NCBI GenBank assembly: GCA_905182375.1
Contig: CAJJBF010000014.1
Coordinates: 1 to 64,000, forward strand
Direction of reading: 5' to 3'
Source of the DNA: Flammeovirgaceae bacterium UBA4465
Lineage (GTDB): Bacteria > Bacteroidota > Bacteroidia > Cytophagales > Cyclobacteriaceae
Length of the DNA stretch: 64,000 nt
The notes beneath the pieces are model-generated. The model was not told the DNA's origin. It was given only the letters and a program-made list of their open reading frames with translations, and did no database searches. The translations under genes and the position numbers were made by a program. Below, piece by piece: positions 38,900 to 56,005 of the stretch (positions are counted from its first letter, which is position 1; every line of letters begins with the position of its first letter).

Positions 38900-38926
38900 A
38901 TCCTAATTTTAATTAAAAATTAGGAT
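38900..38926. repeat. Inverted repeat, 11-bp arms
   Basis: ATCCTAATTTT, loop AATTA, AAAATTAGGAT, a perfect 11-bp stem about 90 bases before the leader peptide start. It could be an operator of the ilv operon or a terminator of upstream noise transcription. Confidence 0.45.
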
Positions 38927-38939
38927 GTTTATACAAATT

Positions 38940-38955
38940 AGAACAATTTTGTTCT
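38940..38955. repeat. Inverted repeat, 7-bp arms
   Basis: AGAACAA, TT, TTGTTCT, 60 bases before the leader peptide start and close to where the ilv promoter must lie. Its size would suit a dimeric regulator site. Confidence 0.35.
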
Positions 38956-39015
38956 GTTACTACGGCTTTCTTAAATAAGGAGTACTAGTTTGAACTTTTA
39001 TTTAACAAAAAAATA

Positions 39016-39075
39016 ATGATACAAATTTCTATAGTTCTCATGTACATTTTGCTCTCAGTGATCATTCATACCTGA
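39016..39075 (+). CDS. ilv operon leader peptide (attenuator peptide)
   Basis: A 19-codon frame, MIQISIVLMYILLSVIIHT, lies 75 bases before ilvE. Eleven of 19 residues are branched-chain: six Ile (two as the rare-type ATA), three Leu and two Val, the amino acids whose synthesis genes follow. It has an A-rich upstream stretch (as usual for Bacteroidota starts) and is followed by a terminator hairpin and an alternative pairing. By analogy with enterobacterial ilv leaders, its translation should stall when any charged Ile, Leu or Val tRNA is scarce. The peptide itself probably has no other role. Confidence 0.8.
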   Translation: MIQISIVLMYILLSVIIHT

Positions 39076-39077
39076 GT

Positions 39078-39114
39078 CGATTGGTTCAATTAATTAAAAA
39101 ATTAAAGCCATTCG
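39078..39114 (+). promoter_or_regulatory. Antiterminator pairing of the ilv attenuator
   Basis: CGATTGGTT (39078-39086) can pair with AGCCATTCG (39106-39114): eight of nine positions pair, one as G-U, with one U-U mismatch. This uses the left arm of the terminator, so the two folds exclude each other. The first arm begins two bases after the leader stop codon (39073-39075), so a ribosome finishing the peptide would cover it, while a ribosome stalled earlier would leave it free. A possible protector stem is CTCAG 39054-39058 with CTGAG 39072-39076. Confidence 0.65.
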
Positions 39115-39142
39115 AAATAAATTAGAATGGCTTTCTTTATTT
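39104..39142 (+). terminator. Attenuator terminator hairpin before ilvE
   Basis: AAAGCCATTC (39104-39113), an 11-base loop, and GAATGGCTTT (39125-39134): a perfect 10-bp stem followed by CTTTATTT. It ends eight bases before the ilvE ATG, with no gene upstream on this strand that would need it, which fits an attenuator. Confidence 0.85.
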
Positions 39143-39149
39143 AAAAAAA

Positions 39150-40040
39150 ATGTATTTTCAAGAGGATAGTATTGTGTTTTTAGATGGTAGTTGGATTGAG
39201 GCAAAAAAAGCAAATTTCAGTCTCTTTAGCCAAACTATGCATTATGGATTTGGAGCCTTTGATGGGATGAGGTCTTACAAAAATGCAGAGGGGTGTAATA
39301 TTTTTAGAGCAAAGGCACATTTTGAACGATTGACGGCTGCATGTAAAGATCTGACCCTCGAAATTCCCTTCACCGTTGACGAACTCGTCAATGTAGCCTA
39401 CAAGCTGTTGAAAAAAAATAAGCTCGTGAATGCCTACGTCAGACCCTTAATTTTTATGGATACCAATATGGACTTGACGACCGATAGTAAGGTCCATGTT
39501 TTTATGGCGGCATGGAGGTGGAAAAAATATTTAGGCAATGAACCTTTAGATCTGATGATCTCAGAGCATAGCAAAACCGTAGGCTTGGCTAATAAAATTA
39601 ATGCCAAAATTATAGGCAATTATACAAACTCCATCTTGGCATCTTCACAGGCCAAAAAATTAGGTTATAGTGAAGCTTTGATGCTCGATATTAATGGGAA
39701 TATTTCAGAGAGTCCAGCAGCTAATTTTTTTTATGAGAAGGACGGCGCACTTTTTACGCCCACTACTGAATTCGCCTATGACGGCATTACGCGCCAAACT
39801 ATCATTGAACTGGCAAAGCAATGGAATATAAAAGTAACCGAAAAAGAGGTGTCAGTAGAAGAGATATACGAGGCAGATTACGCTTTTTTGACAGGAACAG
39901 CTACGGAAGTATCACCTATCAAAAGTATCAATGGTGAAATTTTTAAGGCTGAGTGGGAGGATTCTAATGCTCATAGTCTGTACATGATGTACCGTCAGCA
40001 AGTAATGTTCAATGAATACCAGGGCCTAACTATTGTCTAA
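39150..40040 (+). CDS. ilvE: Branched-chain amino acid aminotransferase
   Basis: A 296-residue fold-type IV PLP enzyme, the last step of Ile, Leu and Val synthesis. Family segments are SQTMHYGFGAFDGMRSY near the N-terminus, NAKIIGNYTNSILASSQAKK (with the PLP-binding Lys) and EALMLDINGNISESPAANFF. It is the first structural gene after the attenuator and is separated from ilvD by four bases. The frame is intact. Confidence 0.94.
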   Translation: MYFQEDSIVFLDGSWIEAKKANFSLFSQTMHYGFGAFDGMRSYKNAEGCNIFRAKAHFERLTAACKDLTLEIPFTVDELVNVAYKLLKKNKLVNAYVRPLIFMDTNMDLTTDSKVHVFMAAWRWKKYLGNEPLDLMISEHSKTVGLANKINAKIIGNYTNSILASSQAKKLGYSEALMLDINGNISESPAANFFYEKDGALFTPTTEFAYDGITRQTIIELAKQWNIKVTEKEVSVEEIYEADYAFLTGTATEVSPIKSINGEIFKAEWEDSNAHSLYMMYRQQVMFNEYQGLTIV

Positions 40041-40044
40041 AATC

Positions 40045-41717
40045 ATGCCGACATTAAATAAATACAGTAAAGTCATTACTCAAGACCCGAGCCAGCCGGC
40101 TTCCCAAGCGATGCTGTATGCCGTTGGGCTATCTAGCTGAAGACATGTCTAAAGCACAAGTAGGTATTGTGAGTACTGGTTTTGAAGGTAACCCTTGTAA
40201 TATGCATTTGAATATTTTGGCACATCAAGTTAAGAAAGGGGTGTTGGATGCTGATTTGGTAGGTTTGATTTTTCATACCATCGGAGTGAGTGATGGTATT
40301 TCTAATGGAACAGCGGGATGAAATACTCCTTAGTGTCGCGTGATATTATCGCAGATTCTATAGAAACGGTCGTCAATGCGCAATACTACGATGCACTAGT
40401 GCCTGTCGTTGGATGTGATAAAAATATGCCAGCCGCCATCATGGCTTTAGGTAGATTGAATCGACCCGGATTGATGGTTTATGGTGGAAGTATCAAACCA
40501 GGTAAATGGAAAGGGAAAGATCTTAATATTGTTTCAGCTTTTGAGGCTTACGGAGCCAAGTTATCAAATAGTATTTCTGATGAGGATTATGAAGGTATCA
40601 TAAAAAACTCAATTCCAGGCCCAGGTGCATGTGGGGGTATGTATACGGCCAATACCATGTCATCTGCCATAGAGGCATTGGGAATGAGCCTGCCTTTTTC
40701 GTCATCTAATCCTGCCGAAAGCCAAGACAAAACGACAGAAACTTTGAAGGTTGGAGCAGCCATCAAAAATCTAATGATAAAGGATATTCTTCCTAAGCAA
40801 ATCATGACAAAGCAGGCTTTTGAGAATGCCATAGCTACCGTCATGGTCTTGGGCGGCTCAACCAATGCTGTCTTACATTTGATCGCTATGGCCAAATCGG
40901 TAGATGTACCTTTGGGCCTTGACGATTTTCAAAGAATTTCTGATAATACACCTTTTATAGCAGATCTAAAACCTTCAGGAGCGTATTTGATGCAGGATTT
41001 ACATCAGGTGGGTGGTGTTCCTGCTGTATTGAAAGAAATGTTACATCAGGGTTACTTACAGGGAGATTGTTTGACGGTTACTGGGGAAAAGTATTGGAGA
41101 AAATTTGGAGGCTGTAAAGTCTTTGAGTGAGCAACAAAAAGTAATTGTCCCTTTTGATAATCCCATAAAAACAAATGGGCACTTACAAATTCTCTATGGA
41201 AACCTAGCTCCCGAAGGTGCCGTAGCCAAAATCACTGGGAAAGAAGGTGAGATATTTGAGGGCCCTGCAAGGATCTATGAAGATGAATTTGATGCTATAA
41301 GAGGCATCATAGAAGAAGTCCAAAAAGGAGAAGTGATTGTGATTAGATATTCGGGCCCCAAAGGTGCGCCGGGCATGCCAGAAATGTTAAAACCCACTGG
41401 AGCAGTGATGGGTGCCGGTCTGGGTAAAGAGGTGGCTTTGATTACTGATGGTAGATTCTCGGGAGGATCACATGGATTTGTCGTGGGACATATTACCCCT
41501 GAAGCGCAAGAAGGGAGGACCTTTAGCTTTTGTGCAAAATGGAGATATCATCAGGATAGATGCCATCAGTAATCAATTGGTTTTGAAAATTTCTGATGAA
41601 GAAATGAAAAAAAGAAAATCCATTTGGATCCAGCCCGATTACAAAGCCAATAAAGGAGTATTAAAAAAATATATCAATTCGGTAGCTACGGCATCCGAGG
41701 GTTGTGTTACCGATTAA
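40045..41717 (+). CDS. ilvD: Dihydroxy-acid dehydratase, frame interrupted by four indels
   Basis: The Fe-S dehydratase that makes the 2-keto acids for Val/Leu and Ile. The pieces join at four points: extra G in GGG 40126-40128, a missing A at 40318, extra G in GGGG 41083-41086, and extra G in GGG 41513-41515. Correction gives 556 residues (normal for the family) with continuous joins [42 protein letters not shown] and [14 protein letters not shown]. Cluster and active-site motifs [17 protein letters not shown] and [12 protein letters not shown] are intact. As written the gene could not be translated. Protein-level conservation argues for sequencing error or very recent loss. Confidence 0.88.
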
Positions 41718-41721
41718 TAAT

Positions 41722-43456
41722 ATGAATACATCAACTTTAGTATTAGAAAAAAAGATAACCAAAAAGACGACCAGAATAAAAGGGTCTGATGCGGTACTTC
41801 AGTGTTTAATAGCCGAAGGAGTTACGACTATTTTCGGTTATCCTGGCGGTGCCATTATGCCTATTTATGATGCGCTCTATCATTATCAAGATAAATTGAA
41901 CCATATTTTGACCCGTCATGAGCAGGGCGCGGTACATGCCGCTCAGGGTATGGCTCGTGTGACCGGCAAAGCAGGGGTCTGTTTTGCTACTTCTGGTCCC
42001 GGGGCAACCAATTTAATTACCGGTATAGCAGATGCACAAATTGATTCGACTCCTTTGGTCTGTATTACGGGACAAGTTCCTTCACATCTATTAGGGACAG
42101 ATGCTTTTCAAGAGACAGATGTTATGGGCATTTCTATGCCTGTGACCAAGTGGAATTACCAAGTGACCCGAGCAGAGGAAATACCTTATGCTATTGCTCG
42201 AGCTTTTTATATTGCGAATACGGGTCGTCCAGGGCCCGTTTTGATCGATATAACCAAAGATGCTCAATTTGCTGAGTTTGATTTCACCTATGATAAATGC
42301 GAAAAAATCCGAAGTTACCACCCTTATCCCGAAGCGCTAACGTCGGATCTTGAGGCCGCTGCAAATTTGATAAATGAGGCTAAAAAGCCCTATATATTGG
42401 TAGGACAAGGTGTTCAGCTTTCTGGAGCAGAGAATGAATTGATGCGATTTGCAGAAAAAACAGGAATTCCTATGGCGGCAACGCTGATGGGACTCTCAGG
42501 AATTCCGACCAGCCATCCCCTTTATGTTGGCTACCTAGGTATGCATGGGAATTATGGTCCTAACATAAAGACCAATGAATGTGATGTATTAATCGCCATA
42601 GGTATGAGATTCGATGATCGTGTGACTGGTGATTTAGACCGATATGCTAAACAAGCCAAAGTAATTCACATCGAAATTGATCCCTCTGAGATAGATAAAA
42701 ATGTAAAAACAGACTGTAGCTGTTTATAGTGATGCCAAACAGGCTTTGCTGGGGCTGCTCCCGTTGGTGAATGTTTCAACGCACAAGGATTGGATAGACG
42801 AGTTTCATCAATGTGATAAAATTGAACTTGATAAGGTAATTGATGCTGAATTGTATCCTGATTCAGGTGAAATAAAAATGGCTGAAGTGATCAATAGGAT
42901 ATCAGAGGTCACTGATGGTGACGCCATTGTCGTTACTGACGTTGGACAACATCAAATGGTAGCAAATAGATATTATAAATTTCGAAAATCATTAAGCTGT
43001 ATTACTTCTGGTGGTTTGGGTACGATGGGTTTCGCGTTGCCATCTGCGATGGGCGCAAAAGTAGGACAGCCAGAAAGAACGGTTATAGCTGTGATTGGAG
43101 ATGGTGGTTTTCAAATGACCATACAAGAATTAGGAACCATAAGGCAGAGTGATTTAGCGGTAAAAATTTTAATTCTAAATAATAACTTCCTGGGAATGGT
43201 ACGTCAATGGCAACAGTTGTTTTTTGAAAAGCGTTATTCTTTTACTGAGCTGGATAATCCAGATTTTCAAATGATTACTAGGGGTTATGGTATCAAAGCT
43301 CAGAAAGTTGAAAAAAGAGAAGATCTAGATCAAGCCATATTTGATTGGTTGAATTGTGAAGGACCGGCACTACTTGAAGTAGTGGTCGAGCAAGAAGGAA
43401 ATGTATTTCCAATGGTGCCTTCCGGAGCCTCTGTAGCTGAAATCAGATTAGATTGA
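41722..43456 (+). CDS. ilvB: Acetolactate synthase large subunit, frame interrupted once
   Basis: A thiamine-diphosphate enzyme for the first common step of branched-chain synthesis. The ATG at 41722 is preferred over TTG 41704. The N-terminal part has GYPGGAIMPIYDAL with RHEQGAVHAAQG (catalytic Glu); the C-terminal part has GDGGFQMTIQELGT and the ThDP/Mg site. The frame stops at 42729. Removing the extra T at about 42715 gives KTDVAVYSDAKQALLG and a 577-residue product, exactly divisible and typical in length. ilvN follows with one base between. Confidence 0.9.
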
Positions 43457-43457
43457 T

Positions 43458-44043
43458 ATGAGTTTAGAAACTTAAATACCCTACCTCAACTCCCAGAGAA
43501 TTTACTTTATCTGTACTTACTGAAGATAAATCTGGATTAATCAATCAGCTGACGATCATTTTTACCAAAAGGAAGATCAATATCAATAGTTTGAACGTAT
43601 CAGTTACAGAAGTCAAAGGCGTAAGTCGCTTTACGATTGTGACCGAGACCAGTAAGGATATGATTGACAATATCGTCAAGCAAATAAGGAAGCTGATTGA
43701 TGTGCTTGGAGCGTTTGTTTACGAAGAAGATCAGATATTCTATCAAGAAATTGCGCTCTATAAAGTGCCGAAATATGCGATTGTGGATGGGAAGTCGATA
43801 GAGGATCTAGTGAGCAAAAGTGGCGCACGGATTTTAGTGGTTGAAACAGACTACATGATCATCGAGAAAACGGGGAAAGCTAGAGAGACCCATGATTTAT
43901 ATCAAAAATTAGAACCTTTTGGGCTCTTAGAGTTCATCCGATCGGGCCGTGTGGCTATATCAAAATCAACAAGAAAAACCGAAGCTTACATCAAGGAACT
44001 AGAGGCTTCAAATTCAAATAAATTAAGTATTAAAGATTTTTAA
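43458..44043 (+). CDS. ilvN: Acetolactate synthase small (regulatory) subunit, frame interrupted once
   Basis: The ATG at 43458 meets a stop after five codons, but dropping one A of AAA 43468-43470 restores a 194-residue protein. It continues TPREFTLSVLTEDKSGLINQ and then IFTKRKININSLNVSVTE, the ACT domain of IlvN, followed by the C-terminal domain to RSGRVAISKSTR. The small subunit gives valine feedback inhibition to IlvB. Without the correction only the part from TTG 43591 would be read, lacking half of the ACT domain. Confidence 0.87.
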
Positions 44044-44064
44044 TTATTCATAAAAGTTAGACAA

Positions 44065-45111
44065 ATGGCAAAAATTAATTTTGGCGGTGTAGAAGAAGAA
44101 GTAGTCACCCGTGAGGAATTTCCCCTCGAAAAAGCAAGAGAAGTAATGAAGGATGAAGTGATAGCCATTGTCGGCTATGGTGTCCAAGGTCCGGGTCAAG
44201 CACTCAACTTGAGAGATAACGGATTCAATGTCATCGTGGGTCAAAGAAAAGGGGGTAAATCATGGGATAAAGCGGTTGCAGATGGATTCGAACCCGGAGT
44301 TTCATTATTTGAAATAGAGGAAGCTTGTGAGAAAGGAACGGTCATTCAATATTTGTTATCAGATGCAGGTCAAATTGACCAGTGGTCCGTTATTAAGCCT
44401 TATTTAACCCCAGGAAAAGCCCTTTATTTTTCTCATGGATTTGGCGTTACTTATAAGGATCAAACAGGAATAGATTTGCCTAGTGACGTAGATGTTATCC
44501 TGGTTGCCCCAAAGGGGTCAGGCACGTCATTAAGAAGATTGTTTGTAGCAGGAAAAGGCCTAAATTCATCATTTGCAGTTCATCAGGATGCAACAGGGCG
44601 TGCGCGTGAGCGAGTGATATCGTTAGGTATTGGCGTGGGTTCAGGTTATCTTTTTGAAACTAATTTTAAAAGTGAAGTTTATAGTGATTTGACCGGAGAG
44701 CGAGGAAGTTTGATGGGAGCTATACAAGGATTATTTGCGGCACAATATGATTTACTACGTAAAAAAGGACATTCACCCTCAGAAGCTTTTAACGAAACGG
44801 TGGAGGAAGCGACGCAATCTTTATATCCGCTGGTAGCTGAAAACGGCATGGATTGGATGTATGCCAACTGTTCAACGACTGCCCAAAGAGGAGCTTTAGA
44901 TTGGTGGAAAAAGTTTAGAGATGCGGTTGCACCGGTTTTTGAAGAACTTTATGAAAGTGTAGCCACTGGAAATGAAGCTAAAATTACGATTGAGGCAAAC
45001 CAGAAGGCCACTTACAGAGAGGGTCTTGAAAAAGAGCTCAATGAGTTAAGGGAATCCGAAATGTGGCGCACGGGGGCTACTGTGAGAAAATTAAGACCTG
45101 AGAATAAATAA
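44065..45111 (+). CDS. ilvC: Ketol-acid reductoisomerase
   Basis: A 348-residue NAD(P)H-dependent enzyme, second step of Val/Ile synthesis. The nucleotide-binding motif is IAIVGYGVQGPGQALNLRDNG, the loop segment GQRKGGKSWDKA decides cofactor preference, and the metal-binding helices include SDLTGERGSLMGAIQG and EATQSLYPLVAENGMDWM. The frame is intact, with a 21-base gap from ilvN. Confidence 0.96.
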   Translation: MAKINFGGVEEEVVTREEFPLEKAREVMKDEVIAIVGYGVQGPGQALNLRDNGFNVIVGQRKGGKSWDKAVADGFEPGVSLFEIEEACEKGTVIQYLLSDAGQIDQWSVIKPYLTPGKALYFSHGFGVTYKDQTGIDLPSDVDVILVAPKGSGTSLRRLFVAGKGLNSSFAVHQDATGRARERVISLGIGVGSGYLFETNFKSEVYSDLTGERGSLMGAIQGLFAAQYDLLRKKGHSPSEAFNETVEEATQSLYPLVAENGMDWMYANCSTTAQRGALDWWKKFRDAVAPVFEELYESVATGNEAKITIEANQKATYREGLEKELNELRESEMWRTGATVRKLRPENK

Positions 45112-45135
45112 TTAACCTTTTTAACTACGATTGTC

Positions 45136-46668
45136 GTGGCAGATCAACTTTATATTTTTGATACAACCTTACGAGATGGTGAACAAGTCCCAGGTTGTAA
45201 ACTGAACACGGAAGAAAAAATCATAGTGGCTAAGGCGCTCGAAGCGTTAGGTGTAGATGTTATTGAGGCGGGTTTTCCTGTTTCAAGTCCTGGCGATTTC
45301 AATTCGGTTCGTGAGTTATCTAAGGCCACTTCAAGGCCTATCATTTGTGCCTTGACACGGGCTGTTGAGAAGGATATTGAGGTAGCGGCAGATGCGTTGA
45401 AATATGCCAAAAGAAAGCGTATTCATACCGGTATAGGGACTTCTTTTTTGCATATTCATCATAAGTTAATGTCCACAGAAGAAAAAGTACTTGAGCGTGC
45501 TGTGCACGCGGTTAAATATGCTAAAAAATATGTAGAAGATGTTGAGTTTTATGCTGAAGATGCTGGGCGGACCGATAATGAGTATTTGGCAAGAGTAGTT
45601 GAATCAGTGATTGCTGCCGGTGCTACAGTCATCAATATTCCAGATACGACAGGATACTGCTTACCAGAGATGTATGGTGCTAAAATCAAGTATTTGATGG
45701 AGCATGTGAAGGGCATTGAAAAGGCTATTCTTTCAACGCATTGTCATAATGATTTGGGTATGGCTACGGCCAATTCAATCATGGGTGTGATCAATGGTGC
45801 GCGGCAGGTTGAGGTCACCATGAATGGTATTGGAGAACGTGCGGGTAATACCAGTCTAGAAGAAGTAGTGATGACTTTTAAAAGTCACAAAGCGCTCAAT
45901 ATCGAAACCAATATCAACACAAAAAATATTTATCAAACCAGTAGACTTGTTTCTAATTTGATGAATATGCCCGTTCAGCCCAATAAGGCCATAGTAGGGA
46001 GAAATGCTTTTGCACATTCATCGGGGATACATCAAGATGGCGTCCTTAAGCTCCGCGAGAATTATGAAATCATCGATCCGGTGGAGGTAGGGGTACAAGA
46101 ATCGTCCATATTATTATCTGCAAGAAGTGGTAGGGCGGCTTTAAGACATCGACTCAGTATTTTAGGATATGTGCTTGAAGAGGAGAAAATTGACGAAGTA
46201 TATGAACATTTCTTAAAGTTGGCGGATTCTCAAAAGGAGATTTCAGATGAAGACCTTGAAAATCTGATGGGTAAAGTTCATAGGGATAAGGAGCACGTTA
46301 AGCTTGATTTCCTTAAGGTTACTTCGGGAAAAGGTTTGGTGCCGAACGCCGTAGTTCACTTAGATGTTTTAGGAGAAAAAATAGAAGTTTCTGGGACGGG
46401 TGTTGGTGGAATTGATGCTGCATTAAATGCGATAAGGTCAGTAATTAATAAGAATGAGTTCATCGATGAGATTTTGATTCAGGCATTTAGCAGAACTACC
46501 TTAGCCTTAGGTAAGGTACATGTCCAACTAAAGAATCAAACAGGAAAAATGTTTCATGGTTTTGCAGCACATCAAGACTTGATTACCGCCGCTATAGAGG
46601 CTTACTTGGATGCAGTTAATAAAATGGGACCCATTGAGCTGAAGAAGATTAAAGAAAAAGAATTATAA
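45136..46668 (+). CDS. leuA: 2-isopropylmalate synthase
   Basis: A 510-residue enzyme condensing acetyl-CoA with 2-ketoisovalerate, first step of leucine synthesis. The start is GTG 45136, directly followed by [20 protein letters not shown] (position 9-28). The metal site [13 protein letters not shown] and [14 protein letters not shown] are present, and the C-terminal LeuA dimer/feedback domain runs from about 380. It lies 24 bases after ilvC. Confidence 0.95.
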
Positions 46669-46678
46669 ATAATAAAAT

Positions 46679-48085
46679 ATGAGTCAATCGACGACATTAT
46701 TTGATAAAATTTGGGATGGCCATACCGTTAAGTCTATTGAAAATGGGCCTAGTGTTTTGTACATTGATAGGCACTATATACATGAAGTAACCAGTCCAGT
46801 AGCTTTTCTAGGTCTAGAAAAAAGGGGATTGAGTGTTGCTAATCCCCAAAAGACGACAGCTACCCCAGACCATAATATTCCTACTCAAGATCAACATTTG
46901 ACCATTCAAGATGCTTTATCTAGAATTCAAGTGGATAAGTTGATGAAGAATTGTAAAAATCATAATATTCCCTTGTACGGATTAAATCACAAATGGCAGG
47001 GTATCGTTCATGTGATTGGTCCCGAGCTGGGATTGACCCAGCCTGGGATGACTATTGTTTGTGGAGATAGCCATACTTCAACACACGGAGCATTTGGATG
47101 CGTTGCTTTTGGCATTGGTACGAGTGAAGTAGAAATGGTTTTAGGTACGCAATGTATCATGCAGCCCAAGCCAAAGAAGATGCGAATCAAGATTGATGGA
47201 GTTTTAAGCAAAGGGGTAACGGCTAAAGACATTGCGCTCTACATTATATCCCAAATAACTACGAGTGGGGGCACTGGGCATTTTATCGAATATGCAGGAA
47301 GCGCTATTGAGGGATTGACCATGGAAGGACGCATGACCTTATGTAATATGAGTATTGAGAGTGGTGCTCGAGGGGGCTTAATTGCTCCCGATCAGACTAC
47401 TTTTGAATACCTTAAGAACAGAGAGTTCTCTCCAAAAGACCAAAAATGGGAGGACGCCATGGCAAAATGGGCCTTGCTCAAGACCGATGAAGATGCTTCT
47501 TTTCACAAAGAATACTTATTTCACGCCCAAGACATTGAGCCCATGATCACTTTCGGAACTAATCCAGGAATGGGAACGGGAGTTACAGGCCACATTCCCC
47601 TGGCTGCTTCTATAGCGGAGAGTGAAAGGGTTACTTATGAAAAATCTCTTCAATATATGGGCTTCAGTGATGGCGATAAATTGCAAGGAAAATCAATTGA
47701 CTACGTTTTTATTGGGAGTTGTACCAACGGCAGGATTGAAGATTTAAGAGAGTTTGCCCATTTTATTAAGGGCAAAAAGAAGGCAGAGAACATTACTGCT
47801 TGGATTGTACCAGGTTCTAAACAGGTAGAAGTCCAAGCCCAAGAGGAGGGTTTGTTAGACATTCTTGAAGCTGCTGGATTTGAGTTGAGACAGCCAGGAT
47901 GTTCGGCTTGTTTGGCCATGAATGATGATAAGATTCCTGCTGGAAAATATGCAGTTTCCACCTCTAATAGGAACTTTGAGGGTAGACAAGGACCCGGAGC
48001 ACGTACCTTACTTGCAAGCCCTTTGGTAGCCGCAGCTTGTGCTATTTCAGGAAAAATCACTGATCCAAGAGAATATTTGAACTAA
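46679..48085 (+). CDS. leuC: 3-isopropylmalate dehydratase large subunit
   Basis: A 468-residue aconitase-family protein holding the [4Fe-4S] cluster by cysteines in FIGSCTNGR and [24 protein letters not shown] and the [19 protein letters not shown] end are typical. With LeuD it isomerises isopropylmalate, and it probably also serves the citramalate route. The frame is intact; leuD follows after 12 bases. Confidence 0.97.
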
Positions 48086-48097
48086 AAGCTTAAGTTG

Positions 48098-48689
48098 ATG
48101 CCCATAGAAAAATTCATAAAAATTCAGTCTTCAGCGGTCCCCGTGCAGATTGAAAATGTAGATACGGACCAAATTATACCTGCACGTTTTTTAAAAGCCG
48201 TCGAGAGAAAAGGATTTGGAGATAATTTATTCAGAGATTGGCGCTATGATAAATCTAATAATCCGATCAGCGGTTTCCCTCTTGAATGAGATCAAATACT
48301 CGGGACAAATTTTGATTGGAGGAAAAAATTTTGGCAGCGGATCAAGTAGAGAACATGCGGCTTGGGCATTGTACGATTATGGATTTAAGGTAGTCGTATC
48401 TAGTTTCTTTGCGGATATATTCAAAGGAAATGCGTTGAATAATGGTCTGCTTCCAGTTCAAGTAACCTCAGATGAGCTTAGTGAAATATTTGAAGCCATA
48501 GACACGGATACTCAAGCTACTTTCACCGTTGATCTTGTGCAACAAACCTTTACAATTGATGCTTCAGGTAAAGTCATTGATTTTGAAATTAATCCTTACA
48601 AGAAGGAATGTCTCTTGCAAGGCTATGACGATATTGATTATTTATTAAGTCTGAAAAAAGAAATAGCAGTTTTCGAATCGAAAGAATGA
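48098..48689 (+). CDS. leuD: 3-isopropylmalate dehydratase small subunit, frame interrupted once
   Basis: The swivel subunit of isopropylmalate isomerase. The frame from ATG 48098 has [13 protein letters not shown] and stops at 48289. Dropping the extra base at 48284 gives [23 protein letters not shown] and continues through [13 protein letters not shown] to a 196-residue protein, as expected for LeuD, with an exact multiple of three bases. The next gene starts one base after its stop. Confidence 0.9.
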
Positions 48690-48690
48690 T

Positions 48691-50244
48691 ATGGATGAGC
48701 AAAAAGTACTCATATTAGATACCACCCTCAGAGATGGTGAGCAGACTTCTGGCGTATCATTTACGGAAACAGAAAAACTCAGCTTGGCCAAAATTTTGTT
48801 AGAAGAGGTCAAAGTAGATCGCTTAGAGATCACTTCGGCGCGTGTATCAGAGGGTGAAAAAAGAGCAGCTCTGCGCATTTTAAATTGGGCGAAGGATACA
48901 GATCATTTAGAAAAAATTGAAATTCTTGGATTTGTAGATCAGCGTGAGTCTGTCAAGTGGATTCAGGAGGTAGGGGGTAAGGTGATGAACTTGCTCGCCA
49001 AAGGATCAGTGAAGCATTTGAGGGGTCAATTACGCAAGACACCAGAAGAACACATTGAATCATTAATTGACACCATTGAGTATGCCAACACATTGGGTAT
49101 TCAGATTAATTTATATTTAGAAGATTGGTCTAATGGAATGATCCAATCTCGGGATTATGTTTTTCAGTTGATGGATGCACTTGAGGACCAACCTATTCTA
49201 CGCTTTATGTTGCCGGATACTTTAGGTGTTTTGCAGCCCTCAGAGACGGCTTTGTTTGTGTCGGAAATGATCCATCGTTATCCCAAACTTAAATTTGATT
49301 TCCATGCACATAATGACTACGATCTGAGTATCGCAAATGTTTTGGAAGCCGTAAAAGCGGGAGTAAGCTGTATTCACGTCACAGTTAATGGCCTGGGAGA
49401 ACGAGCCGGTAATGCTATTTTGAGTAGTTCAATTGCAGCGCTTCGTGATCATCTTAAAATTGAAACAAATGTGGTAGAAACCAATATTTATCGCATCAGT
49501 AAATTAGTTGAAACCTTTTCAGGCTTACGGATTCCCGCCAACAAACCTTTGATTGGGGCCAGTGTATTTACCCAAACTTGTGGCGTACATGCAGATGGGG
49601 ACAGTAAGGATAATTTATATTTCAATACGCTCATGCCCGAACGCTTCGGAAGGTCCCGAAGTTATGCTTTGGGCAAGACTTCCGGAAAAGCAAATGTGAA
49701 AAAGAATCTAGCTGAACTAGGTATTGAACTTGATGAGAAAACACTCAAAAAAGTAACGGATAGAGTCATTCAATTGGGAGATAAAAAGGAACAAATCACG
49801 TTGGATGATTTACCCTATATCGTTGCAGATGTTTTGGATTTGGCAGAGATTGAGCAAAAGGTAAAAATCATCAATTATAATTTATCACATGCCAAGGGCT
49901 TGAAGCCTGTGGCTTCCGTGGCCTTAAAGATAGAAGGGAAACAGTATGAGGCGACTTCAGCAGGGGACGGACAATATGATGCCTTTATGAATGCCCTATC
50001 AAAAATCTATCAAGATAAACTTAAGAAATCGCTCCCACAATTGATAGATTATAGTGTATTGATACCTCCTGGAGGGAAATCAGACGCCTTATGCGAAACT
50101 ACCATAACCTGGGAAATGAAGCGCGAGTTCAAAACTCGGGGAGTTGATACTGATCAAACTTTTTCAGCTATAAAGGCAACGGAGAAGATGTTGAATTTAC
50201 TTCAAAATGAGACCATTCTTCAAATCACACAATTACAATCATAA
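48691..50244 (+). CDS. 2-isopropylmalate/citramalate synthase family protein (second copy)
   Basis: A 517-residue HMGL-like synthase with [20 protein letters not shown] at the start, metal site FHAHNDYDLSIAN and NGLGERAGNAIL, plus a C-terminal regulatory domain. It differs clearly from the leuA three genes upstream. In Bacteroidota such a second copy is usually regarded as citramalate synthase, which makes Ile from pyruvate and acetyl-CoA without threonine. No threonine deaminase (ilvA) is in this cluster, which fits that role. Substrate choice is inference; a second isopropylmalate synthase is the alternative. Confidence 0.82.
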   Translation: MDEQKVLILDTTLRDGEQTSGVSFTETEKLSLAKILLEEVKVDRLEITSARVSEGEKRAALRILNWAKDTDHLEKIEILGFVDQRESVKWIQEVGGKVMNLLAKGSVKHLRGQLRKTPEEHIESLIDTIEYANTLGIQINLYLEDWSNGMIQSRDYVFQLMDALEDQPILRFMLPDTLGVLQPSETALFVSEMIHRYPKLKFDFHAHNDYDLSIANVLEAVKAGVSCIHVTVNGLGERAGNAILSSSIAALRDHLKIETNVVETNIYRISKLVETFSGLRIPANKPLIGASVFTQTCGVHADGDSKDNLYFNTLMPERFGRSRSYALGKTSGKANVKKNLAELGIELDEKTLKKVTDRVIQLGDKKEQITLDDLPYIVADVLDLAEIEQKVKIINYNLSHAKGLKPVASVALKIEGKQYEATSAGDGQYDAFMNALSKIYQDKLKKSLPQLIDYSVLIPPGGKSDALCETTITWEMKREFKTRGVDTDQTFSAIKATEKMLNLLQNETILQITQLQS

Positions 50245-50265
50245 TTTACTTTAGCATAAATTTCA

Positions 50266-51336
50266 ATGAATTTGAATATAGCAATACTATCTGGAGATGG
50301 GATAGGGCCAGAAATTATTAACGAAGCATTAAAGATTACGCAAGTAGTTGCTGATAAATTCAACCATAAGTTGGTCTATAAACATGCACTTACTGGTGCG
50401 GCCGCCATAGAGGCAGTGGGAGATCCTTATCCAGATGAAACTTTAGAAGTTTGTAAAAACTCAGATGCTGTATTATTTGGAGCCATAGGAGATCCTAAAT
50501 ACGATAACGATCCGAGTGCTAAAGTACGCCCTGAACAAGGTTTATTATCCATGCGAAAAAAATTAGGCCTTTATGCAAATATTCGTCCGTTGACTACTTT
50601 CAAGTCTTTGATTCATAAATCCCCCTTACGCACTGAATTAGTTGATGGCGCTGATTTCGTTTGTATACGTGAGTTGACAGGAGGTATTTATTTTGGTCAA
50701 CCCCAAGGTCGGTCAGAGGATGGTAATACCGCCTATGATACTTGCATATACACGCGATCTGAAATTGTAAGAATCTTAGAATTAGGATTTGAATTTGCCC
50801 GTAAAAGAAGAAAAAAACTAACGGTGGTTGATAAAGCGAATGTATTGGCCACTTCAAGACTATGGAGGCAGATTGCTCAGGAGATGTCGCCTAATTATCC
50901 TGATATTGAAGTCGAGTATTTACTCGTTGACAACGCTGCGATGCGCATCATACAATGGCCAAAGGATTTTGATGTTATGGTGACTGAAAACATGTTTGGT
51001 GACATTCTAACCGATGAGGCCAGCGTGATCAGTGGTTCTTTAGGCTTGTTGCCTTCAGCATCGGTAGGTGTCCATACATCTGTTTTTGAGCCGATTCATG
51101 GATCTTATCCTCAAGCGGCAGGTAAAAACATAGCTAATCCTGTGGCGACTATACTTTCTGCTGCTATGATGTTTGAATATGCCTTCAAGTTGATTGAAGA
51201 AGCTGCATTGATCAGGGAGGCTGTAGAGCAATCTATAGTGGAAGAATTTGTGACAATTGATATTGCAGAAAGTGCTGTAGGACAGTCAACCTCTGAGGTA
51301 GGAGATTGGATGGCCGCTTATATTGAAAATAAATAA
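50266..51336 (+). CDS. leuB: 3-isopropylmalate dehydrogenase
   Basis: A 356-residue NAD-dependent beta-decarboxylating dehydrogenase. [12 protein letters not shown] starts the protein, [15 protein letters not shown] and [16 protein letters not shown] form the active site, and [19 protein letters not shown] binds metal and NAD. It completes leucine synthesis and probably acts on methylmalate for Ile. thrA starts two bases after its stop. Confidence 0.97.
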
Positions 51337-51338
51337 CC

Positions 51339-53787
51339 ATGATTGTACTTAAGTTCGGTGGAACTTCTGTGGGTAATGCCAAGAGCATCAAAACGGTTGC
51401 CAAGGTATTGCTAGAGAAATCGTCATCAAATGATGTTTTTGCTGTAGTTTCTGCTGTGGGAGGTGTGACCAACCAATTGATAAGCGCCACACATTTTGCT
51501 CAGAACAGAGATACTCAATACGAGTCTTTGGTTAAAGAAATTGAAGAGTTTCACTTGACCCTTGTCAAAGACCTCATTGACGTCAAACTCCAAAGTGGTG
51601 TTTTAGGAGGTATTAAGCTCATTATTAATGAGCTAGAAGAGATTTTAAAAGCTATTTTTGTACTACGAGAAAACAGTTTAAAGTCCTTTGATTATGTATG
51701 TGGTATCGGTGAGCGATTGTCCGTATTGATTATATATAATTACCTCAAGGGATTAAAAAAGGAGGTTAACTTGGTTGATCCTACTCAAATTCTTACCTGT
51801 ACCAATGAATTTGGCTTTGGCCATGTGATCATGGATATCTCCCGAGAAAAGGCCATTGAACAGTTGGCTGATCTAAAAGCAAATTAATATCTGTCCAGGG
51901 TTCATTGCTAGGACAGTGGAGGGGGATTTTACCACCTTGGGTCGGGGAGGCTCTGATTACACGGCGGCATTATTTGCAAACTTTTATAAAGCATCTGTCT
52001 TAGAAATCTGGTCTGATGTCAGTGGTTTGATGACGGTAGACCCAAGATTGGTAACCGCTGCGCGCGTCATTCCTCAACTCTCTTATGAGGATGCTTTAGA
52101 ACTTTCACATTTTGGTGCCAAAGTGATTTATCCTCCCACGATACAACCGGCTTTAGAACAAAATATTCCAATCATAATAAAGAACACTTTTAAACTTACA
52201 GATTTGGGTACCAAAATTACAAGCTCATGGGAGGATAATAGCACCATCAAAGGTATTTCATCTATCGACGAAATATGCTTATTGAATTTAAGTGGGAGTG
52301 GTATGGTTGGCATACCTAACTTCTCTGCACGCTTTTTTCAAGCCCTCGCCGATCGAAATATCAATGTAATTATCATCACACAAGCTTCTTCGGAGCATAC
52401 CATTTGTGTAGGTATTCAATCTTTTGATCAAGAAAAGGCAGTTGAAGAACTTCATAAGGTTTTTAAAAGTGAAATTAATTCAGGAAAAATAGATCCAATA
52501 GAAGTAGAACAACATTTATCTATTGTTGCCTTGGTGGGCTCTAACATGAAAAGTCAGGTTGGGATCAGCGGTCAGATGTTCAGTGTGTTGGGGAGGAATG
52601 GTATTAATATTAAAACGATTGCTCAAGGTTCATCTGAACGCAATATTACTGTCGTTATTGAAAAAAAGCATCTCAAAAAAGCCTTAAATGCTTTGCACGA
52701 ATCTTTTTTTATAGAAGAAATAAAGAAAGTAAATCTTTTTATTATTGGTTTGGGGAATGTTGGCAAAGCTTTTTTAGAGCAAGTATCCAATCAGCAAGCT
52801 TATCTGTTGGATAAATTGAATATGAATTTGGTCATCATTGGAGCAGCCAATTCTAAAACCATGATTTTTGATGAGCAAGGTCTTGGTCCTACGACCTTCA
52901 TGGAGGAGTTACCCAAGAGTGAAGTATTTAATCAAGCGAATTTTCTTGAGCAAATGCGGACCTTGAATTTGCGAAATAGTATTTTTATAGACATTACTGC
53001 TTCGGCGACAGTGGCTGAAATATATGAAGAGGTACTAAAAGAGAGTATCTCAGTAGTGACTCCCAATAAAATTGCTGCTACCAGAGAATATAAACATTAT
53101 TCATTACTGAAAAGTTTATCCAAAAAGTACAAGTCTCAGTTTTTATTTGAAACCAATGTGGGTGCCGGTTTACCCGTTCTTTCTACCTTGAGTGATTTGG
53201 TAAAAAGTGGGGACCAAATCATCAAAATTGAAGCCGTACTTTCTGGAAGCTTAAATTTTATTTTCAATAATTATGATGGAAATAGACCCTTTGTTGAAGT
53301 AGTGAAACTGGCTAAAAAAGAAGGCTATACGGAACCTGATCCTCGCTTAGACTTGTCAGGAGAGGACGTTATGCGTAAAATTTTGATTTTGGCTCGTGAA
53401 AGTGGTTATCAATTTGATTTAGACGAGGTGATGGGTAATAGTTTTCTCCCTGAAAGTTGTCAGACATCTGAGAACGAAGCTGATTTTTATTTGAAATTAG
53501 CCGCCGATGAAACCCATTTTTCAAAGCTTTATCAAGAGGCAGAATCAAAAGAATGTAAATTGCGATATGTAGCGTCATTTGAGGATGAAAAATTAACTAC
53601 AGGCTTGTCTCAGATAAGTATGGATCATCCCTTTTATCATTTGGAAGGGAAAGACAATATTGTACTTTTTTATACCCATCGCTATCCAGAACAGCCTTTG
53701 GTAGTTAAGGGTGCTGGGGCGGGTGCCGCAGTAACAGCATCTGGGATATTTGCTGATGTTATGCGTGTAGCCAATACGCAACAATAG
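51339..53787 (+). CDS. thrA: Bifunctional aspartate kinase/homoserine dehydrogenase, frame interrupted once
   Basis: An 815-residue fusion after correction. Aspartate kinase begins with LKFGGTSVGNAKSI; two ACT units (about 310-455) give allosteric control; homoserine dehydrogenase follows (about 470-815) with FIIGLGNVGKAFLEQ and GAGLPVLSTLSDL. The frame stops at 51887. Dropping one A from AAA 51881-51883 gives INICPGFIARTVEGDFTTLG, the conserved kinase segment, and an exact length. The enzyme makes aspartyl phosphate and homoserine for threonine and methionine. It is followed after three bases by thrB. Confidence 0.91.
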
Positions 53788-53790
53788 ATT

Positions 53791-54720
53791 ATGAGAAAGT
53801 CAATCAAAGTGTTTGCACCGGCCACGGTAGCCAATGTAGGTTGTGGCTATGATGTTTTGGGATTTGCTTTGGAGGGCTATGGGGATGAATTGATTCTGAC
53901 ACGGCGTGATGATGAGCGGCTGGTGATTACTTCGATCGAAGGTGTGCAGGGTATACCCTTAGATCCCCTAAAGAATGTGTCTACAGTAGCTATTCAAGCA
54001 TTGCTGACAGATTTAGATCTGAATCAAGGATTTGATTTAAGAATAAAAAAAAATATAGCAGCAGGAAGTGGCTTGGGCTCGAGTGCCTCCAGTGCCGCCG
54101 CCGCGGTATATGCTGCAAATGAAATTTTGGGAAGTCCTAAAAGTAAACTTGAACTCATAAATTATGCTATGGTAGGTGAAAAATTAGCATCCACCAAAGC
54201 ACATGCAGATAATGTAGCACCTAGTGTTTTAGGGGGGTTTACAGCGGTAAGAAGTTATGAACCGCTAGATGTTTTTAATATTTCTTATCCAGAAAGTTTA
54301 AAAGTGGTTGTTATATTTCCTCAAATTGAGATCAAGACCAGTGACGCTAAAAAAATGCTAAGAGATGAAGTCAAATTGACTGATGCTGTGAAACAATGGG
54401 GCAATATGGCAGGATTGATTTCAGGTCTCATTGAGCAGGATTTTGAACGTATAGGGAAGTCATTGCAGGATGTCATTGTTGAGCCGGTGAGAAGTATTTT
54501 AATACCGTTTTATCATCAAATGAAAACATTAGCTTTAAAGAAAGGAGCTTTAGGGTTCAGTATATCAGGATCTGGCCCCAGTATGTTCTGCTTTATCAAA
54601 GAGGCTGATGCTTCTGGTAGAATAATTGATGCTGCCCGAGTACTTTATGGAGCGCATGAAATTGAGGTCATTTCTTTTGTTTCAGGGATCAATAAACAAG
54701 GTGCAAAAATCATTGAATAG
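53791..54720 (+). CDS. thrB: Homoserine kinase
   Basis: A 309-residue GHMP kinase. The ATP-binding motif AAGSGLGSSASSAAAAVYA lies at about 91-109. The N-terminal FAPATVANVGCGYDVLGFAL and C-terminal FSISGSGPSMFCF are family-typical. It phosphorylates homoserine. The thrC ATG begins one base after its stop. Confidence 0.96.
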   Translation: MRKSIKVFAPATVANVGCGYDVLGFALEGYGDELILTRRDDERLVITSIEGVQGIPLDPLKNVSTVAIQALLTDLDLNQGFDLRIKKNIAAGSGLGSSASSAAAAVYAANEILGSPKSKLELINYAMVGEKLASTKAHADNVAPSVLGGFTAVRSYEPLDVFNISYPESLKVVVIFPQIEIKTSDAKKMLRDEVKLTDAVKQWGNMAGLISGLIEQDFERIGKSLQDVIVEPVRSILIPFYHQMKTLALKKGALGFSISGSGPSMFCFIKEADASGRIIDAARVLYGAHEIEVISFVSGINKQGAKIIE

Positions 54721-54721
54721 T

Positions 54722-56005
54722 ATGAAATTCCATTCAACCAAAAACAAATTATATCAAGTCAGTTTTGAGGAGGCGGTATTCAAAAGCTTACCCCCAGATA
54801 ATGGTCTTTTCTATCCAAATGCCTTGCCTAAATTAGAAGCTTATTGGCTAGAAAATCTCAAAGGGATGTCCAAAACTGAAATTGGAGTCAAAGTAGCTTC
54901 TCAATTTATTGAAGATGAGATTCCTGCAGATCGCCTGGAAAAAATTATTGAGGAGACCATAGACTTTGATATACCCCTTAAAAAGGTAAGTAACCAAATA
55001 GCAGCATTAGAACTATTTCATGGACCTACGTGGGCTTTTAAGGATGTAGGTGCGAGATTTTTGTCTCGATGTATGGCTTATTTTATCGAGCAGTCCAATC
55101 GTGAAATTACGATATTAGTGGCCACTTCTGGTGATACGGGAGGCGCTGTTGCAGCTGGATTTTTTGGAATACCAGGGATACAAGTGAAGATTTTATATCC
55201 CAAAGGAAAAGTAAGTGAGATTCAAAGAAAACAGTTGACTACTTGGGGAGGTAATATTACGGCTTATGAGGTAGCTGGAACTTTTGATGATTGCCAAAGA
55301 TTGGTCAAGCAATCATTCCTTGATAATGATTTAAATAAGGCAATGAGTTTATCATCGGCCAATTCTATTAATATAGCCAGACTGATTCCTCAATCATTTT
55401 ATTATTTCTATGCCATTCAGCAGTCTGAATCAGCTCATAATGTGATCAGTGTACCTTCAGGAAATTATGGCAATCTGACCGCAGGTTTGTGGGCTTGGTC
55501 CATGGGGTTACCGATAGACAGATTCATAGCTGCTTCAAATGAAAATCATGTGGTGCCAGAATACCTTCGTACAGGTGTTTATACGCCTACCCCTTCTGTT
55601 CAAACCTATGCCAATGCCATGGATGTTGGTGCGCCAAGTAATTTTGTAAGAATGCTCGAATTGTTTGGGAGTAATCATGTCAAAATGACGCAACACATTT
55701 CTGGATTCAAATTAGGAGATGCTGACATCTTAAAAACCATGATCAGTTGCCAAGAGGAGCATAATTATCTTTTAGACCCTCATGGTGCCATTGGCTATCA
55801 AGCGTTATTGAATGGTTTAAATGATCATGAACAGGGCATATTTTTAGAGACCGCACATCCAGTTAAGTTTCTCGATGTTGTCGATAAAGCATTTAAAAGA
55901 CGTCAAGATTTTTCAGAAAAAATAAATTCTTTTGGTGGTAAAAAGGAAGTTTTTCAAGCTCTTCCAATTGATTTTGAATCTTTCAAAGAAGCTTTGATGG
56001 CTTAA
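54722..56005 (+). CDS. thrC: Threonine synthase
   Basis: A 427-residue PLP enzyme converting phosphohomoserine to threonine. The PLP lysine is in HGPTWAFKDVGARFLSR; ATSGDTGGAVAAGFFG and SVPSGNYGNLTAGL bind phosphate and cofactor. The ATG at 54722 fits the conserved start MKFHSTKNKLYQVSF; an upstream in-frame extension inside thrB is not real. It is the last gene of the 17-kb biosynthetic cluster and converges on the rhodanese gene with 21 bases between. Confidence 0.96.
   Translation: MKFHSTKNKLYQVSFEEAVFKSLPPDNGLFYPNALPKLEAYWLENLKGMSKTEIGVKVASQFIEDEIPADRLEKIIEETIDFDIPLKKVSNQIAALELFHGPTWAFKDVGARFLSRCMAYFIEQSNREITILVATSGDTGGAVAAGFFGIPGIQVKILYPKGKVSEIQRKQLTTWGGNITAYEVAGTFDDCQRLVKQSFLDNDLNKAMSLSSANSINIARLIPQSFYYFYAIQQSESAHNVISVPSGNYGNLTAGLWAWSMGLPIDRFIAASNENHVVPEYLRTGVYTPTPSVQTYANAMDVGAPSNFVRMLELFGSNHVKMTQHISGFKLGDADILKTMISCQEEHNYLLDPHGAIGYQALLNGLNDHEQGIFLETAHPVKFLDVVDKAFKRRQDFSEKINSFGGKKEVFQALPIDFESFKEALMA

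Follow-up and report, generated by a model that had tools for sequence, protein, structure and literature searches.

A predicted ribosome-mediated attenuator ahead of the ilv-leu-thr genes of a Cyclobacteriaceae genome, with similar units in relatives

Introduction

How might a bacterium of a phylum that starts translation without Shine-Dalgarno pairing adjust the transcription of a long run of biosynthetic genes to its supply of isoleucine, valine, and leucine? The question is raised by a short leader region in Flammeovirgaceae bacterium UBA4465 (contig CAJJBF010000014.1), of which a stretch of 64,000 nucleotides, here called the window, was analysed. The enterobacterial ilvGMEDA, ilvBN, and leu operons are known to carry leader-peptide attenuators, in which the progress of a ribosome along a small frame decides between two exclusive hairpins. 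A sequence-only reading of the window had proposed the same logic in front of its ilv, leu, and thr genes. From sequence and comparative evidence, we consider it highly probable (roughly 0.9) that the region is a ribosome-mediated transcription attenuator sensing charged Ile, Val, and Leu tRNAs.

Methods

Searches for ilvE covered 98 same-family genomes taken from a larger group, and an ilvE alignment was searched against a collection with one genome per species. A close ilvE was present in 40 of the 98 family genomes, which gave 41 loci; the other 58 had matches with E values of 3e-30 or weaker only. In the species collection the best 80 of 587 ilvE matches were kept as named loci, and 47 of these were examined; L077, L078, and L080-L110, whose titles belong to other phyla, were omitted. 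Two of the 47 were then excluded, L073 with its 6 nt upstream and L075 with its gammaproteobacterial title, and L032 and L039 were retained despite MAG titles outside Bacteroidota, leaving 45. The total was thus 86 loci, each with at least 300 nt upstream. The titles of the named loci include Fulvivirga, Chryseolinea, Chryseosolibacter, Roseivirga, Hymenobacter, Pontibacter, Chitinophaga, Flavihumibacter, Pedobacter, Tenacibaculum, Myroides, and Chryseobacterium, genera that we take to span Cytophagales, Chitinophagales, Sphingobacteriales, and Flavobacteriales.

A unit was defined as a stable hairpin with a T-run, preceded by an Ile/Val/Leu-rich frame ending 5-75 nt upstream of the hairpin, with a score of at least 3. 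The shuffle test of arm pairing used 83 units; one spurious overlapping unit (L008) was then removed, and later tests used 82. For each of these 82, whichever stretch close to the leader stop paired best with the terminator's left arm was assigned as the antiterminator arm.

Results

Leader frame and terminator in the window

The features immediately ahead of ilvE are the following.

39016..39075, + strand: leader ORF of 19 codons, MIQISIVLMYILLSVIIHT, then TGA; 11 Ile/Val/Leu residues
39077..39115, + strand: predicted antiterminator hairpin, 5' side 39077-39095 and 3' side 39100-39115; 15 pairs, -9.8 kcal/mol
39104..39134, + strand: predicted intrinsic terminator hairpin, regions 3:4; 10 uninterrupted pairs, loop of 11 nt, -12.3 kcal/mol
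39135..39142, + strand: T-rich tail CTTTATTT, 6 T in 8, a moderate tail

The leader runs from the ATG at 39016 to the TGA at 39073-39075, and the 11 branched-chain residues that the sequence-only reading had counted among its 19 are confirmed; the last control codons are V15, I16, and I17 (39058-39066). Ahead of the ATG there is A at -3, -6, -11, and -12 and T at -13 to -15. The A-rich bases partly match the start context of Bacteroidota as reported in PMC7366714. The leader is probably translated. When the 450-nt upstream region was shuffled with its dinucleotides preserved, the score of the window's best leader and terminator unit was reached in 0 of 300 shuffles.

The perfect 10-bp hairpin with a T-rich tail just ahead of ilvE, also part of the earlier claim, is confirmed by the sequence and ends 15 nt before the ilvE ATG. 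Its stability was equalled in 4 of 300 shuffles of the 450-nt upstream region, and it would be expected to terminate transcription. A simple terminator scan has no entry at 39104-39142; the rule of that scan admits loops of 3-8 nt only, and the loop here is 11 nt.

The competing hairpin

The sequence-only reading had paired 39078-39086 with 39106-39114 as an alternative to the terminator. This competing hairpin is present in the sequence and is larger (39077-39115). TCGA at 39077-39080 pairs with 39112-39115, TGGTT at 39082-39086 with 39106-39110, and TTAATT at 39090-39095 with 39100-39105, interrupted by one T.T mismatch (39081/39111) and one 3-nt bulge. Taken whole, the hairpin is significant, with -9.8 kcal/mol against a mean of -2.6 (sd 1.8) for shuffles, of which 1 in 500 was equally stable, and it engages 9 of the 10 left-arm bases of the terminator. 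The two short arms alone, as a duplex of regions 2 and 3, reach -6.1 kcal/mol, a value matched by 24% of 50 shuffled upstream stretches, and are not significant. The leader stop lies just ahead of the antiterminator arm, as had been claimed: region 2 begins 1-2 nt past the stop, and on geometry, with an assumed footprint, a ribosome at the stop codon would cover it.

Conservation ahead of ilvE in relatives

Had relatives shown neither a conserved leader frame nor conserved stems, the sequence-only reading would by its own terms have been refuted; the survey is favourable to it. Units were found at 66 of the 86 Bacteroidota loci, the 45 named ones coming from the best 80 of 587 matches, compared with 7/86 reverse complements and 0-1/86 in each of five sets of shuffles. 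The units are divided between 35 of the 41 family loci and 31 of the 45 named loci, the latter again from the best 80 of 587. No unit with a score of at least 3 was found at 20 of the 86 loci, including three titled Sphingobacterium and one titled Winogradskyella. In 1.07 Mb made up of the window and the 45 named loci, scanned on both strands, the rule set at score 5 picked out 42 strong units, of which 28 lie within 450 nt before ilvE and 14 elsewhere.

Over the 82 units the leader residues are 24% Ile, 15% Val, and 11% Leu, with 1% Phe and 4% Ala; the high share of the first three is due in part to the selection of frames for those residues. The low Phe and Ala are unlike a membrane peptide. 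Between genera the peptides resemble one another mainly in their richness in Ile, Val, and Leu.

Geometry and joint change of the arms

In 76 of the 82 units the arm falls within -20 to +13 of the end of the stop codon, that is, under a ribosome at the stop if its footprint is as assumed, and the last Ile/Val/Leu codon is a median of 9.5 nt from the arm. In the window the arm follows the stop; in many relatives it is inside the last codons of the leader, which fits the recurrent peptide endings GEW, GKW, and SGW. The arm sequences vary widely and have matching partners (GGAATGG, GGGGCG, GAGGTGG, GATACAG, GAAGCGG, and others).

Compensatory change in the stems had been proposed as a check on the attenuator, and its outcome suggests that across relatives a change in an antiterminator arm tends to be matched by one in its partner. 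Against shuffled upstream stretches, 51 of 83 units had antiterminator pairing in the best 5%. When arms were instead compared with unlike partners from other loci, 38/82 were in the best 5% and 70/82 above the median, against 16/82 in the best 5% for the reversed-sequence control, so part of this signal is due to base composition alone. The shuffle and swap tests of regions 2 and 3 are unequal in strength.

The sister genome

A genome of the same genus, G041, has 94% DNA identity to the window across the operon. Its leader is MVQTSVILTKIFLPVIIQT, still rich in Ile, Val, and Leu. The leader DNA is identical at 47 of 60 positions without indels, the changes numbering 5, 2, and 6 at the three codon positions, and ilvE is identical at 824 of 888. 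Of the 59 positions that run from the stop codon through the terminator, 58 are identical; the sole substitution falls at the antiterminator's T.T mismatch, and the sole length difference in the A-run that forms its loop. As far as this pair of sequences indicates, the leader peptide drifts and the switch does not.

The protector hairpin

The region had been called a complete attenuator. Leader, terminator, and antiterminator are present, but a protector hairpin (1:2) was not detected in the window, where region 2 pairs with the leader no better than it does with codon-shuffled leaders (rank 0.70), so that the word complete is slightly strong. In the sister genome the rank is 0.15, which is borderline. 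In the fold test, which compares leader plus arm with codon-shuffled leaders, 1:2 pairing was supported at 0.05 or better in 30 of 82 units, where about 4 are expected. The energy of leader plus arm beat that of codon-shuffled leaders at 5% in 36/82 units, and at least half of the arm was paired upstream in 71/82 best folds, a count that has no control. Relatives give evidence of the full 1:2, 2:3, and 3:4 scheme and the window of 2:3 and 3:4. A duplex-only test (7/82) had pointed to near-universal absence of the 1:2 hairpin; that idea was overturned by the fold-based result and has been discarded.

Codon choice in the leaders is uneven. The Val codon GTC has a share of 0.45 in the leaders of the 82 units and 0.12 in ilvE, and the Leu codons TTA and TTG are under-used. 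The preference for GTC is possibly a by-product of leader RNA structure, since AATGGC in the arm could base-pair with GTC-ATT, which would be a plausible reason for it.

Promoters and predicted nearly leaderless leaders

The main promoter of Bacteroidota carries TAnnTTTG, placed at -12 to -5 in Flavobacterium psychrophilum according to PMC9723704. A scan for the exact box found none before the window leader, with no hit for L001 or L002. By eye, one weak candidate can be pointed out.

38986..38993, + strand: possible promoter -7 box, TAGTTTGA, weak

If it follows the spacing of F. psychrophilum, transcription would start about 18 nt ahead of the leader ATG. An AT-rich palindrome, TCCTAATTTTAATTAAAAATTAGGA (38901-38925, -8.1 kcal/mol), lies between the divergent gene and the leader and is less perfect in the sister genome.

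Of the 71 first units, one of which (L008) is a spurious frame, 24 have the exact box at a distance of 4-56 nt ahead of an in-frame ATG, with start codons chosen by the analyst; the remaining 47, the window included, have no exact box in this range. Boxes 4-20 nt before the ATG were found in 16/71 first units, against 0-4/71 across 20 shuffle sets. In 8 of the 24 the distance is 4-10 nt, from which a 5' UTR of 0-6 nt is predicted, which would make these leaders nearly leaderless. Leaderless mRNAs are given as 5.5% in F. psychrophilum (PMC9723704), and 5' UTRs shorter than 10 nt as about 3.7% in Bacteroides thetaiotaomicron (PMC7366714). Relative to 5.5%, 8/24 is an enrichment (binomial 2.8e-5), to be read with the stricter measure of leaderless used for F. 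psychrophilum and with the species here being related.

Tandem units

Two leader and terminator units stand in series before ilvE at 13 of the 86 loci, 11 of them within 450 nt and two more within 900 nt; the window has a single unit. The tandem loci (L017, L019, L020, L021, L023, L045, L054, L059, L068, L071, L111, L113, and L119) comprise eight family members and the titles Roseivirga, Pontibacter (P. indicus), Tenacibaculum (two), and Chryseobacterium. A fixed rule of two units with a score of at least 2 selected 12/86 loci, or 11 once one spurious case (L008) was removed, and 0/86 both among reverse complements and in each of five shuffle sets. Both leaders of each pair are rich in Ile, Val, and Leu by the score used, so the same signal seems to be sensed twice.

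At 7 of the 13 tandem loci an exact promoter box precedes the first unit, and at 0 of 13 the second; a relaxed pattern gave one box before a second unit (L020). In 19 of 26 comparisons, pairing was stronger between a unit's own arms than across units. The reverse held in 7 of 26, and strict orthogonality of the two units is not claimed.

The genes downstream and other leaders of the genome

39150..40040, + strand: ilvE, branched-chain aminotransferase, first gene of the presumed operon (TIGR01122, 250.6 bits, cut-off 245.55)
40041..56005, + strand: ilvD, ilvB, ilvN, ilvC, leuA, leuC, leuD, cimA, leuB, thrA, thrB, and thrC, by the NCBIfam models of these names

About 17 kb of genes had been placed under control of the leader. 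The gene content agrees with that length, with a run of ilv, leu, cimA, and thr genes from ilvE to thrC (39150-56005) that measures 16.9 kb and makes the amino acids that would be sensed; that the run forms one transcript is a presumption. The cimA gene (citramalate synthase-like, 48691-50244, next to leuB) has NF042433 as its best match, with 661 bits, below the cut-off of 950. With cimA in the operon, a threonine-independent route to isoleucine may be available, although the operon goes on to include thrABC.

The frames of ilvD, ilvB, ilvN, leuD, and thrA (40041-53787) are interrupted relative to G041, in which they are full length. There are eight single-base length differences from G041 in 17 kb, and since other parts of the window have them too, assembly error and gene decay are equally likely causes.

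The genome of the window has a second leader of interest, before a trpE-like gene (L123, G000:C8) assigned by Pfam PF00425 only. A frame with three consecutive Trp codons, MTLNKTYWWWLEIQIYNL, lies 66-123 nt before this gene and is followed, directly ahead of the gene, by a strong predicted terminator of -17.4 kcal/mol; it is likely, on sequence, to be a Trp attenuator. The Rfam Trp_leader model gives 25.3 bits only there (cut-off 41), and Thr_leader and Phe_leader score equally. With this leader, the organism of the window probably uses attenuation more than once. No comparable leader was found in this genome before the PDT (pheA-like) gene or a second chorismate-binding gene. A search for hisG (Pfam PF01634) found none in the genome, which has a recorded completeness of 94.7%; missing sequence or histidine auxotrophy may account for this.

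Discussion

Proposed mechanism

The polymerase would transcribe the 19-codon leader with a ribosome trailing it. When amino acids are plentiful, the ribosome would get to the TGA at 39073-39075 and mask 39077-39086, the antiterminator's first arm. This would free the left arm of the terminator (39104-39113), the terminator would form, and transcription would stop before ilvE. A shortage of Ile, Val, or Leu would stall the ribosome at one of the 11 control codons, and the antiterminator (39077-39115) would fold first and exclude the terminator, so that the 16.9-kb ilv-leu-thr operon would be transcribed. A response to these three amino acids is what the codon content of the leader suggests.

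Alternative explanations

The attenuation reading is supported by conservation at 66/86 loci, by the joint change of the arms, by the geometry of stop and arm, and by the sister comparison. Since the region is AT-rich and short frames are numerous in it, the hairpin might be an ordinary terminator insulating ilvE from upstream transcription, with an Ile/Val/Leu frame ahead of it by chance. We regard this as very improbable: 0/300 shuffles reach the score of the unit, the same combination recurs at 66 of 86 loci, and the arms tend to change jointly; moreover, all frames of at least 150 aa between 36 kb and the leader are on the opposite strand. Just as improbable is a functional small protein, perhaps of the membrane, that is conserved before ilvE, for which the hydrophobic peptide and the retention of the frame between the sister genomes could be cited. 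The leader, however, is less conserved than ilvE (47/60 against 824/888 identical positions) and has changes at all three codon positions; peptides of different genera are alike mainly in Ile/Val/Leu richness, and the 82 leaders hold 24 Phe to 460 Ile residues.

A conserved RNA ahead of a biosynthetic operon could also bind a metabolite or tRNA directly, as a riboswitch or T-box, with the small frame incidental. Rfam 15 (4227 models) gave no match at gathering score in the window and none at E up to 1 for 38900-39250, the 8 relatives that were searched likewise had none in their leader regions at gathering score, and the conserved RNA is confined to switch arms of varying sequence; a direct sensor is thus extremely improbable. 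A variant of the attenuator itself deserves more weight, though we think it rather unlikely. In the lineage of the window there may be a two-state switch without a protector hairpin, in which an untranslated leader would lead to readthrough and translation would be needed for switching off; in enterobacterial leaders, loss of leader translation favours termination. The rank of 0.70 in the window agrees with such a switch, but the borderline sister (0.15) and the 30/82 units with supported 1:2 pairing, against about 4 expected, do not, and absence in one lineage may be mere failure of prediction.

Implications

We offer, as a tentative view held with somewhat less than even confidence, that a branched-chain attenuator is old in Bacteroidota and adapted to initiation without Shine-Dalgarno sequences, the leader AUG of some species being at or a few nt from the 5' end, and that in roughly one of every seven loci the whole attenuator occurs twice under one promoter. 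If this is true, two switches of the same specificity in series should respond more steeply than either alone, and natural tandem attenuators provide a way to test how serial switches shape a response. The survey gives comparative support for amino-acid-specific, ribosome-mediated attenuation in a phylum that starts without Shine-Dalgarno pairing, and it supplies 82 predicted leader units, some in cultured species. Chryseolinea serpens, Pontibacter indicus, and Fulvivirga imtechensis are examples of cultured relatives that share this anatomy. For the window, the leader would offer single-point control of the 16.9-kb ilv-leu-thr operon.

Comparison with known systems

A 2010 survey of attenuators stated that, to its authors' knowledge, leader-peptide systems had earlier been shown only in Proteobacteria and Actinobacteria (PMC2965389). 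For Bacteroidota, leader-peptide attenuation has since been proposed before amino-acid operons of F. psychrophilum (PMC9723704), a member of the same phylum whose conserved structured 5' elements likewise lack Rfam hits; the section concerned names elements before pheA, hisG, ftsY, acsA, alaS, and rimP, with no ilv leader among these. Leader-peptide-like small frames in long 5' UTRs are described for B. thetaiotaomicron (PMC7366714), and small leader genes are reported to peak at certain distances before genes, Bacteroidetes included, in the survey of PMC4833913. The Bacteroid-trp motif (RF01692, PMC2864571) is presented as a probable cis-regulatory RNA of Bacteroidetes, linked to trp by name; it differs in that the window gave no match to it, and the trpE-like locus none at E up to 1. 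These Bacteroidota papers, as far as their relevant parts go, suggest leader peptides without working out a branched-chain case, and among the open-access matches listed, by titles and the starts of abstracts, there was no branched-chain attenuator of Bacteroidota. The F. psychrophilum proposal and this result together indicate that the kind is known and that, within open-access reach, this member and its breadth appear undescribed.

Outside Proteobacteria, in other phyla, an attenuator or uORF before ilv genes is described for ilvBNC of Corynebacterium (PMC11857589, PMC10272879) and for ilv-leu of Staphylococcus aureus (PMC5794164); the likeness is by description only. The tandem attenuators of Salmonella mgtCBR, as PMC3641672 describes them, resemble 13 of the 86 loci in having two small frames with attenuators in one leader, and the difference is that in the 13 tandem loci both units have Ile/Val/Leu-rich leaders.

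The closest comparison is with the branched-chain leaders of enterobacteria. The region differs from them in that it has no Rfam match, no Shine-Dalgarno sequence was seen before the leader, and the protector hairpin was undetected in the window, and also in placing a single control region ahead of ilv, leu, cimA, and thr genes together. What it shares with the leaders of ilvGMEDA, ilvBN, and leu is an Ile/Val/Leu-rich leader, a predicted antiterminator and terminator that exclude each other, a stop codon adjoining region 2, and a biosynthetic operon on the 3' side.
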